A stretch of 64,000 nucleotides of DNA, taken from NCBI RefSeq assembly GCF_900474185.1, contig NZ_UCNW01000008.1, forward strand, positions 558,001 through 622,000. The letters are read 5' to 3'. The stretch comes from Synechococcus sp. UW69. GTDB lineage: Bacteria > Cyanobacteriota > Cyanobacteriia > PCC-6307 > Cyanobiaceae. The position numbers were made by a program, and so were the translations under genes. This document shows positions 34,807 through 37,938 of the stretch, in pieces (within the stretch, counting starts at the first letter, position 1; every line of letters starts with the position of its first letter). Under the pieces are notes generated by a model, which saw only the letters and a list, made by a program, of their open reading frames with translations, ran no database searches and was not told the origin of the DNA.

Positions 34807-36180
34807 ATGACCCCAGCTGCCACCAAAGCTGCCAAGCCGGACATCGTTCTTCTGGCCAATGCTGACGGCACAGTGAAGGAAGTCTCGAGCAAAGAATCCA
34901 AAAAAGCCCCCGCGCGCCGCCGAGCCAGCAAGTCAAGCGCGAAGGACCTGAGCGCCGCGGCAGATGAACTGCTCGCAGCAGCGGATCAGGCCAAGTCTTC
35001 CGGAACAACGAAGAAAGCAGCAGCCAAAACCGCCAAGGCAAAAACCACCACAAAGACCACAAAGAAAGCAGCAACCGCCAAGAAGACCACCACCAAGGCA
35101 TCAACAGCTAAAAAATCGACCGCCAAGGCAGCTACAGCTCAACCAACAGCTGAAGAGAAGGCCAAAACAGCCGCTGCCGAGAAGGAAGCCAAGGCCAAAG
35201 CCCTGGCGAGCATCAAAATCGGCCCCAAAGGCGTTTACACCGAAGACTCCATTCGGGTCTATCTGCAGGAAATCGGACGGATCCGCCTTCTGCGTCCCGA
35301 CGAAGAGATCGAACTCGCTCGCAAAATCGCGGATCTCCTCTACCTCGAAGAGCTGGCGTCTCAATTTGAAAGCGACAACGGCCGGGAACCCGACAAAAAA
35401 GAGTGGGCCGCGTTGGTTGAGATGCCGCTCATCCGCTTCCGCCGTCGCTTAATGCTGGGCCGACGAGCCAAGGAAAAAATGGTGCAATCCAACTTGCGCC
35501 TCGTTGTCTCGATTGCCAAGAAGTACATGAATCGGGGCCTGAGTTTTCAGGATCTGATTCAGGAGGGCAGCCTTGGCCTGATTCGAGCAGCTGAAAAGTT
35601 CGACCACGAAAAGGGCTACAAGTTCTCTACCTACGCCACCTGGTGGATTCGTCAGGCAATCACGCGAGCCATCGCGGACCAGAGCCGGACCATTCGCCTA
35701 CCGGTTCACCTCTACGAAACGATCTCCAGGATCAAGAAAACCACCAAGGTTCTCTCCCAGGAATTCGGTCGTAAGCCAACGGAAGAGGAAATCGCTGAAT
35801 CGATGGAAATGACCATCGAGAAACTGCGGTTCATCGCCAAGAGTGCCCAGCTGCCGATCTCGCTCGAGACCCCCATCGGCAAAGAAGAGGATTCCCGTCT
35901 GGGCGATTTCATCGAAGCAGACATCGAGAACCCCGAACAAGACGTCGCCAAGAACCTGCTACGTGAAGACCTCGAGGGAGTTTTGGCAACCCTCAGCCCC
36001 CGCGAGCGCGATGTGCTTCGACTCCGCTACGGATTGGACGACGGACGCATGAAAACCCTTGAGGAAATCGGCCAGATTTTCGACGTGACCCGCGAAAGGA
36101 TCCGTCAGATCGAAGCCAAGGCCCTGCGCAAGCTGCGCCATCCCAACCGCAATGGGGTGCTCAAGGAATACATCAAGTAG
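34807..36180 (+). CDS. rpoD: primary (group 1) sigma-70 factor with histone-H1-like N-terminal tail
   Basis: 457 residues from ATG 34807. Residues ~143-457 hold sigma regions 1.2 to 4.2: [16 protein letters not shown]; 2.2-2.4 ([32 protein letters not shown]); region 3; and 4.2 with the helix-turn-helix ([20 protein letters not shown]). The end [13 protein letters not shown] is a primary-sigma type. Residues ~66-134 are almost entirely Lys/Ala/Thr in short repeats ([11 protein letters not shown]-like), resembling histone H1 tails; such a tail is unusual for sigma factors. A candidate small RNA lies downstream. Confidence 0.96.
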
Positions 36181-36264
36181 GTCACGAACCCGAGGCTGTC
36201 ATCGAACAGTCTTGGGAGTAATACATAAGTACATTCCCCCTAGCTCAAAGCCCCGATGGGCTCC

Positions 36265-36342
36265 TATAACGATCTTGAGGGAATTGAGACGCCCTCCTCA
36301 CACGGAAGAGATCAAACCTCAGTCTGAGACTGGGGTTTTCCT
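36265..36342 (+). ncRNA. candidate small RNA downstream of rpoD
   Basis: A TATAAC -10 hexamer (36265-36270) precedes a short unit expected to start near 36277. A 5' hairpin (GAGGG/CCCTC, 36277-36296) is followed by an unpaired purine-rich linker and a strong terminator hairpin ending about 36339. The linker starts with CCTCCTCACAC (36293-36303), one base off the ACTCCTCACAC motif that defines the cyanobacterial RNA Yfr1, and the size (~65 nt) and hairpin-linker-terminator order are similar. Identity with Yfr1 is not established because the first motif base differs and part of the motif could pair. No clear -35 is seen. Confidence 0.5.
36314..36339 (+). terminator. intrinsic terminator
   Basis: CCTCAGTC (36317-36324), loop TGA, GACTGGGG (36328-36335) with one G-T pair, extended by AAA/TTT pairs, then a T4 run and CTTT. 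It is a well-formed rho-independent terminator for the plus strand and could end the candidate RNA or the rpoD transcript. Confidence 0.8.
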
Positions 36343-36378
36343 TTGGGAGAAAATAAAAATTCGGTGCATCAGTGTGGA

Positions 36379-36846
36379 TTACGAAGGGCTTTCGAAGGTC
36401 TCCGTAAATTCCTGAAAGGCACGCTTCAAGCGCTCCACCGGTGTCTCCTCAAGAGGACATTCCTGACGCGTCTCCAAGGCATAGGCCTGAAGCAGACGTG
36501 GATCGGGCTCAAGCACAGAGGCGACTGCCGCCTTGAACAGCACAAGGTTGTGCTGGGACGTAAGCCCCGCCAGATAAGGCTGAAGCACCCAGCTCAGCTG
36601 ACCATCCTCCGGGGGTTTTACAGCCGAGCGAACCAGACGCGGCCGGAGCAACTGATAGGCGTGATCACCATCACGATCGGTGGTGTGCCGAAGCCGCGCC
36701 ATCAAGACGTCACCACTGCACAACAGGATCAAACGAATGCATCCCTCGGCCACCAAGGGGAGCATGGTCTCCTGCTCCTGGGGTTCAGGGGCAACCGAGC
36801 CGATCGCTCCCACCTGACGAACGCCATTCACAACGGGGCCTGGCAT
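36379..36846 (-). CDS. conserved-looking hypothetical protein
   Basis: 155 residues from ATG 36846 (GTG 36864 also in frame). A mixed alpha/beta protein with blocks GCIRLILLCSGDVLMARLRH, DRDGDHAYQLLRPRLV and SWVLQPYLAGLTSQHNLVLFKAAV, and an acidic C-terminus. No family is recognised and no membrane segment is seen. It sits alone between rpoD and hemC on the opposite strand. The composition is coding-like. Confidence 0.7.
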   Translation of the reverse strand: MPGPVVNGVRQVGAIGSVAPEPQEQETMLPLVAEGCIRLILLCSGDVLMARLRHTTDRDGDHAYQLLRPRLVRSAVKPPEDGQLSWVLQPYLAGLTSQHNLVLFKAAVASVLEPDPRLLQAYALETRQECPLEETPVERLKRAFQEFTETFESPS

Positions 36847-36984
36847 GAGGGTCCTACGCGGCACACGAATGTTACGCGTTCTTCACATAGGCGGCCTTCT
36901 CTTTCGAAGCTTCACAACCTCAAGGCTGCCAATCAATTGAGACCTGCCCAAAAGCGTAGGCTGGGCGGCTGATTCGCCTTGTAC

Positions 36985-37938
36985 ATGGCCCTCACCGAAC
37001 TGCGCATCGCCTCACGACGCAGCCAGCTGGCCATGGTGCAGACCAATTGGGTCAAAGCGGAACTGGAAAAAGCGCATCCAGGCTTAAAAATCACCGTGGA
37101 AGCCATGGCGACCCAGGGCGACAAAATCCTGGACGTTGCCCTGGCCAAGATCGGCGACAAAGGCCTGTTCACGAAAGAACTGGAAGCCCAGATGTTGGTG
37201 GATCGTGCGGACATCGCCGTCCACTCCCTGAAAGACCTTCCCACCAACCTTCCTGAGGGGCTGATGCTCGGCATCATCACCGAGCGGGAAGACCCGGCTG
37301 ACGCACTTGTCGTGAATGCCAAAAACCAGGCCTACAAGCTCGACACGCTTCCTGAAGGATCTGTGGTGGGAACCAGCTCCCTGCGGCGCCTGGCCCAGCT
37401 GCGTCACCACTACCCCCACCTGATCTTCAAGGACGTGCGGGGGAACGTGATCACCCGGCTGGAGAAGCTGGACAGCGGCGATTACGACTGCCTGATCCTC
37501 GCTGCAGCAGGTCTTGGCCGCCTGGGCTTTGCCGATCGGATCCACCAACTGATCCCCGGCGACATCTCCCTGCACGCCGTTGGCCAGGGAGCACTGGGCA
37601 TTGAATGCGTGGAGGGCAAGCCTGAAGTTATGGAGGCAATCAAGGTGCTGGAGCACATGCCCACCTCCCAGCGCTGCCTGGCCGAACGCGCTTTTCTGCG
37701 GGAACTGGAGGGCGGCTGTCAGGTTCCCATCGGCGTGAACACCCGCTTCGAAGGCGATCAACTGATCCTCATCGGCATGGTGGCCAGCCTCGACGGCAAA
37801 CGCTTGATCCGCGACCAAGCCAGCGGCCCCGCCAGCGACCCCGAGGCCATCGGCCTCTCCCTCGCCCACACCCTCAAAGATCAGGGCGCAGGAGAGATCC
37901 TTAAAGAGATCTTCGACACCGTTCGCCCCGAAGCCTGA
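36985..37938 (+). CDS. hemC: hydroxymethylbilane synthase (porphobilinogen deaminase)
   Basis: Polymerises four porphobilinogens into hydroxymethylbilane in heme/chlorophyll synthesis. 317 residues from ATG 36985. [43 protein letters not shown] (read in two parts), [21 protein letters not shown], and the cofactor cysteine in [12 protein letters not shown] are present. Length is normal. It converges on the L,D-transpeptidase gene with no gap. Confidence 0.97.

Follow-up and report, generated by a model that had tools for sequence, protein, structure and literature searches.

A probable genus-specific small RNA near rpoD in Synechococcus sp. UW69, predicted to pair with porin ribosome-binding sites

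Introduction

Yfr1 is a small RNA (sRNA) of 54-69 nt with two stem-loops separated by 16-20 nt, and most of its homologues are located between guaB and trxA. Its exact motif is ACUCCUCACAC (PMC2190773, available passages). The motif is single-stranded between the stem-loops. Yfr1 represses porins in Prochlorococcus; in the E. coli GFP reporter system of PMC6778093 (available passages), a PMM1121 5'UTR reporter was down 4.7- and 3.8-fold with Yfr1. Yfr10 and the Yfr10-like RNAs are short cyanobacterial RNAs that carry the Yfr1 motif beside Yfr1, with the exact motif in a loop atop a stem, according to the passages available from PMC2518516 and PMC6778093; the latter reports one such RNA in Synechococcus WH8102. 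Here we describe a locus in a 64,000-nt stretch of the Synechococcus sp. UW69 genome (the window), for which a small RNA with a Yfr1-like motif had been predicted.

Results

A compact, conserved RNA gene between rpoD and hemC

The unit, termed type A, consists of a -10 box, a 5' hairpin, a 17-nt linker and a terminator (Table 1), and the RNA would be ~63 nt long (63-64 nt). The rpoD-type gene next to it is a main-type sigma factor gene, the stop codon of which lies 96 nt from the sRNA core. The original prediction had read a TATAAC -10, a 5' hairpin, a strong terminator and a unit of ~65 nt from this DNA, all of which are present in the sequence. It had also described an unpaired linker containing CCTCCTCACAC; the motif lies at the expected place, but its CCTC is paired in the 5' hairpin.

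Table 1. Features of the type A locus and its paralogues (positions in the window unless a locus is named)
Feature	Position	Strand	Remarks
rpoD-type sigma factor gene, upstream	34807..36180	+	sigma-70 regions 1.2, 2, 3, 4: Pfam PF00140, PF04542, PF04539, PF04545
AAGTAC upstream element, -50 to -45	36227..36232	+	exact in 25/27 loci, one change in the other two
-10 box TATAAC	36265..36270	+	TATAA in 26/27 loci, CATAA in 1/27
sRNA, type A	36277..36339	+	start inferred from -10 spacing and abrupt onset of conservation
5' hairpin GAGGG-AAUUGAGACG-CCCUC	36277..36296	+	invariant in type A loci; loop motif UUGAGAC at 36284-36290
CCTCCTCACAC, resembling the Yfr1 motif	36293..36303	+	half of the motif inside the 5' stem
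Linker CUCACACGGAAGAGAUC joining both stem-loops	36297..36313	+	CACAC..GGA common to type B
Proposed target-pairing stretch UCCUCACACGGAAGAG, nt 19-34	36295..36310	+	complementary to porin ribosome-binding sites
Intrinsic terminator	36314..36339	+	hairpin 36314-36338, then short T run; 11-pair helix, 94.3% of cells paired
DUF6561-like convergent neighbour	36379..36864	-	under the Pfam cut-off
hemC, porphobilinogen deaminase	36985..37938	+	present in 27/27 loci; conservation yardstick
Type B loci	L137:1286-1420; L069, L082, L088, L091, L092, L094, L099, L104, L110, L111, L118		

A DNA search of 59 genomes (the own genome and 58 relatives) detected 27 loci (L002-L028, the own locus included), all in the window's genus and each with 0-2 changes in a 36-nt core. 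Over these loci 32 of the 36 core columns are invariant, and any two cores are on average 98.8% identical; for comparison, identity across those loci is 54% at the fourfold hemC sites (6/85 invariant) and 34-38% in two promoter-spacer stretches. The conservation of the core far exceeds chance. A near-invariant core is what the check among related strains that came with the prediction had looked for, and together with the constant -10 spacing and the terminator it strongly supports the candidate small RNA. The unit possesses the attributes of an independent bacterial sRNA gene, namely its own promoter, its own terminator and a conserved transcript region. We infer transcription from these sequence features, and the segment most likely is an independently transcribed, trans-acting sRNA of a genus-specific family.

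In the terminator helix, both-sided changes were found in 5 of the 11 pairs. Across the whole structure 19 such both-sided cells were seen versus 6.9 in shuffles (0/500 as high), and the count of both-sided pairs alone was 5 versus 3.3, a value that 42 of 500 shuffles reached. The fold of the single sequence was not striking (z -1.79, equalled by 8/200 shuffles). CTCACACGGAAGAGATC comes after CCTC, and the CTC of CTCACACGGAAGAGATC can pair weakly with GAG, and the motif has a mean unpaired probability of 0.42 (Yfr1, 1.0). Opening nt 18-27, which frees CUCCUCACAC, costs 7.85 kcal/mol versus 0 in Yfr1; opening nt 21-30, which frees CUCACACGGA, costs 1.93 kcal/mol, and opening the pairing stretch UCCUCACACGGAAGAG costs 6.3 kcal/mol.

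Promoter and relation to rpoD

The -10 box precedes the core by 6 nt in 20 loci and by 7 nt in the other 7 (27/27), and a TTGACA-like -35 box is present in only 1 of the 27. The AAGTAC element is found at -49 to -51 across loci and is probably an activator site. By eye, it fits none of the NtcA, LexA and RpaB consensus sequences. The promoter would thus combine a strict -10 box with AAGTAC at -50 and lack a -35 box; transcription would begin at ~36277 and end at the intrinsic terminator; AAGTAC would place type A under separate control.

The distance between rpoD and the sRNA is 94-97 nt in ten loci (the own one included) and 49 nt in one. It is 193 nt in L026, 235 nt in L018, 629 nt in L016 and ~1.0-1.4 kb in L012, L014 and L028, and it reaches 7.2 kb in G023, 7.9 kb in G032 and 10.0 kb in G020. 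No rpoD was found within 6 kb in G019, or in the available stretch of six loci (L021-L025 and L027). These distances bear on the suggestion that the element belongs to the rpoD 3'UTR, such that the sRNA is part of the rpoD mRNA and the terminator is shared with the convergent gene. In the own genome the core follows the rpoD stop by only 96 nt; rpoD transcription probably continues into the terminator, and the sRNA may be cotranscribed with rpoD. However, in 10 of the 27 loci the distance to rpoD ranges from 193 nt to about 10 kb, and the -10 box keeps its place ahead of the core in every locus. Because the promoter is kept when the sRNA is 7-10 kb from rpoD, type A is not merely an rpoD 3'UTR, and as the sole explanation this reading is highly unlikely.

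The interval between rpoD and the sRNA is an insertion hotspot, with 7-10 kb in G020 (L242), G032 (L243) and G023 (L244) and >6 kb in G019 (L245). Of these intervals L243 and L245 were scanned; both contain resolvases (PF00239), and L243 also contains a VapE-like gene. In G014 the AAGTAC element is overlapped by the rpoD stop, and in other loci it looks as if the 3' end of rpoD had been partly duplicated, the pattern left when an element integrates into the 3' end of a gene.

Type A is separate from Yfr1

The single RF01116 match in the genome (68.7 bits; family cut-off, 38 bits) is on contig C11 at G000:C11:269972-270028, between genes that by eye are guaB-like and trxA-like. This is the true Yfr1 (locus L001), and it answers the proposed check for another Yfr1 in the genome. 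The same covariance model, also proposed as a check, found nothing at the gathering threshold in the window and nothing at E<=10 in positions 36100-36500. The orthologue reading was rejected on the missing covariance match and the presence of the true Yfr1 at another locus, and on these sequence grounds type A is an RNA separate from Yfr1.

The prediction had noted that the motif differs from that of Yfr1 in its first base, and this proved correct: C, not A, precedes CUCCUCACAC in 27/27 loci, giving CCUCCUCACAC where Yfr1 has the exact ACUCCUCACAC (PMC2190773, available passages). With half of the motif buried in the stem, unlike the single-stranded Yfr1 motif, and with a locus between rpoD and hemC rather than guaB and trxA, the proposed Yfr1 homology did not hold. 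The broader similarity held for the size class (63-64 nt) and for the layout of two stem-loops around a linker (17 nt), and failed for the covariance match, the locus and the exposure of the motif. The two RNAs also share the CUCCUCACAC string and a predicted target in porin ribosome-binding sites; the likeness may be a functional one, through pairing with porin leaders. Unlike Yfr1, type A extends its predicted pairing into GGAAGAG, and its strong matches are confined to one genus.

Type A and the Yfr10-like RNAs

An alternative is that type A is a true Yfr10-like RNA, which would act via CUCCUCAC on Yfr2-type RNAs and many mRNAs, its match to porins being incidental. CCUCCUCACAC is only one base off the Yfr1 motif, and a Yfr10-like RNA is already known from WH8102 (PMC6778093, available passages). 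This one difference is fixed, however: the exact motif of a Yfr10-like, non-Yfr1 RNA, ACUCCUCACAC, occurs in none of the 27 type A loci. In type A the near-motif has its CCUC as the 3' arm of the stem, whereas Yfr10-like RNAs, as described in the passages at hand, hold theirs in the loop, and exposing it carries the 7.85 kcal/mol cost given above. Moreover, type B, the nearest relative of type A (see below), lacks UCCU, and three other recurrent loci in the genus carry the exact motif. We consider it unlikely that type A is a Yfr10-like RNA.

ACTCCTCACAC was found at 85 places in 34 genomes of the genus, 76 of which were classed: 29 Yfr1-type, 26 L035-like, 12 L032-like and 9 other. The L035-like places come after a conserved TTCAGGAGTCTGTCC string. 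It is the L035 and L032 types, rather than type A, that fit the exact-motif Yfr10-like RNAs as described in the available passages of PMC6778093. A search with the 11-letter motif merges at least four conserved loci in one genome and calls for caution. CTCCTCACAC occurs 6 times in the own genome versus 4 times for the reversed control, and the Yfr2 pattern GTGTGNAGGAG gave 6 places, none of them Yfr2-like by eye.

L035 (G000:C9:104504) and 25 further places share a conserved TTCAGGAGT...CCCTGAAGAG..ACTCCTCACAC arrangement, which in the own genome is 3' of rplL. Two pairings are possible at L035, AGGAGT/ACTCCT and TTCAGG/CCTGAA, which are mutually exclusive and switch-like. L032 (G000:C8:249613) and 11 further places, in 12 genomes, represent another likely sRNA, with a GC-rich terminator after the exact ACTCCTCACAC. 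In other genera CTCCTCACAC with a terminator was observed at L076 (G151) and L077 (G296), by eye directly 3' of the end of a porin-like gene and of a cytochrome c6-like end, respectively.

A paralogous RNA at a second locus

The pattern TGAGACNCCCN{2,6}CACACGG was found at 37 places in 28/400 family genomes, none of them outside the window's genus, and its controls gave zero. These places comprise 26 type A loci and 11 loci of a second kind, type B, with the sequence GGGGCUUGAGACACCCCUCACACACGGA or near to it and a T run after 10 of the 11 (the exception is L104). A gene for a protein of ~83 aa starts 110-130 nt downstream of type B in the four loci read (L110, L118, L104 and L088), and in the own genome a diverged type B lies by the same gene (L137, ~1358-1420). 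Type B shares with type A the hairpin with the UUGAGAC loop, the CUCACAC..GGA linker and the terminator; it differs in its locus, in its upstream element (~GTCACA..GACA, with a NANANT-like -10) and in lacking CCUCCU. The original prediction had offered a paralogue among its readings; this holds in a different sense, as type B, encoded at a second locus, is a paralogue of type A and is not Yfr1.

Compared without gaps, type B of L091 and type A are identical in 24 of 30 letters, with compensatory changes at pair 1-20 (G-C to A-U) and pair 2-19 (A-U to G-C), a stem covariation taken from this ungapped pair only, as the A/B alignment shifts type B by one column. A small-ORF reading of the core, starting at the NTG of nt 8-10, was rejected on inspection: its stop is not conserved and the loop and linker lengths differ in type B. 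The NTG holds the sole variable base of nt 1-27.

Distribution within and beyond the genus

A model, R1, was built from the same 27 loci, so that only absence elsewhere is informative. It matched 27/400 family genomes at 73.8-96.6 bits, all of the window's genus, which amounts to 27 of the 34 genomes of the genus; among those at least 90% complete, type A is present in 17/19. Of the other two, G005 contains a degenerate copy (55.6 bits; -10 TGTAAA by eye, hairpin down to 3 pairs), and G007 gave no strong R1 match. Some match at E<=1 was obtained in 161/400 family genomes, with the best out-of-genus match, among the 366 genomes of other genera in the family, at 32.8 bits; nine weak out-of-genus places were inspected and rejected as members. 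In the class sample 12/388 genomes matched at E<=0.001, and these too belong without exception to the window's genus. The family and class runs used stricter filters, which weak relatives could escape.

The exact 19-mer was present in 13 records of named genomes, 12 cyanobacterial and one spirochaete MAG without the 5' arm. Phage-borne copies were rejected: five viral-contig pattern matches had no hairpin and terminator, and six phage records gave partial matches only (E >= 0.4). The abstracts and passages covered by a literature search describe no sRNA after rpoD in marine Synechococcus, and an earlier description is possible. The novel marine Synechococcus sRNAs of Gierga et al. 2012 may include type A, and Voigt et al. 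2014 may likewise already describe it.

Complementarity to porin leaders

TTCCGTGTGAG, the complement of the linker, occurs at 34 places in the genus, 26 of them the sRNA itself and 8 elsewhere; the reversed control occurs at 11. Four of the 8 non-self places (G011, G020, G023 and G026) are orthologous and lie immediately before porin start codons, preceding ATGAAGCT(T/C)TTCCAGCAACTGCTGGT; the protein that begins there has SLH and OprB porin domains. A search for porin-like genes covered 19 genomes of the window's genus plus 4 from the genus g57 and gave 104 matches; 79 leaders were used, and the others were excluded for a missing or unplaceable gene start. Among the 59 leaders from the 17 type A genomes, 37 have UGUGAGGA before the start, typically as UUUCCUGUGUGAGGA, and 22 are without it.

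With nt 18-36 of type A, all 37 UGUGAGGA leaders ranked in the best 1% against a background of 4118 window tiles, with a mean of -23.0 kcal/mol, a rank that shared Shine-Dalgarno letters inflate, as the background tiles are not leaders of other genes; the Yfr1 linker placed 1/37 leaders in the best 1% (mean -17.4 kcal/mol). UCCUCACACGGAAGAG and leader L247 of G020 form 16 consecutive pairs (-27.0 kcal/mol), and the own-genome leader L327 pairs with type A at -22.1 kcal/mol with one bulged U. On five chosen leaders, 0/1000 shuffled linkers did as well. After subtraction of opening costs, Yfr1 (-14.4) beats type A (-4.1) on the own L327, and type A is clearly ahead of Yfr1 only in leaders of other genomes (-15.8 vs -5.0 for L247 of G020; -12.7 vs -6.8 for L287 of G026). 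RNAduplex on whole RNAs, which models this case poorly, did not distinguish most leaders from the tiles; 299/1032 tiles did as well as the own L327. Type B also pairs with the own L327, at -19.4 kcal/mol for the own type B and -20.1 kcal/mol for that of G020.

In G005 and G007, where type A is degenerate or lost, the complementarity is retained in 4 of 5 leaders. In g57, which is without type A, 9 of 10 UGUGAGGA leaders, often with GGUGUGAGGA, were in the best 1% (mean -19.7). Because genomes without intact type A retain complementary leaders, the link between leader and sRNA is not a strict one.

Some porin leaders form a second class (L257 and similar ones such as L264, L289 and L250), which carries CUCUUGGUGUGAGAACC before the start and pairs differently; the own L257 pairs with type A at -18.8 kcal/mol.

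Discussion

From the sequence comparisons, type A probably acts in trans and uses UCCUCACACGGAAGAG to pair with SLH/OprB-type porin mRNAs at their ribosome-binding sites, blocking translation in the manner of Yfr1. The linker CUCACACGGAAG, including CUCACACGGA, would seed on the porin leader, and it would pair before the stem opens because the 5' stem ties up the UC of nt 19-20. The stem would then open and add this UC, and the ribosome-binding site would be blocked, by analogy with what Yfr1 does to PMM1121. The activator, the repression and the order of pairing are predicted steps of this model.

Pairing with porins leaves the near-invariance of the loop and the stem unexplained, and type B keeps the loop despite its altered stem pairs. 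Both observations would suit a protein-binding RNA whose contact is the UUGAGAC-loop hairpin and for which the porin-leader match is secondary. On the other hand, no partner protein is known, each genome has 1-2 copies, and the porin leaders account for the conservation of the linker, so we regard protein binding as the main role as quite unlikely and favour porin pairing. Tentatively, types A and B may be a pair of porin-regulating sRNAs that is specific to the genus, has not been described before and arose beside Yfr1, with the anti-Shine-Dalgarno end of type A locked in its stem; the pair would provide a second, separately controlled porin regulator; this is possible, though doubtful as a whole.

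Porins govern uptake in the streamlined marine picocyanobacteria and may bear on contact with phages. If true, a second, genus-specific sRNA pair on the porin leaders of the ancient Yfr1 would offer a direct view of how an sRNA network grows when convergent or duplicated regulators gather on a single target, and both RNA types, together with Yfr1 and the diverse leaders, would serve as natural variants for dissecting the functions of the parts.
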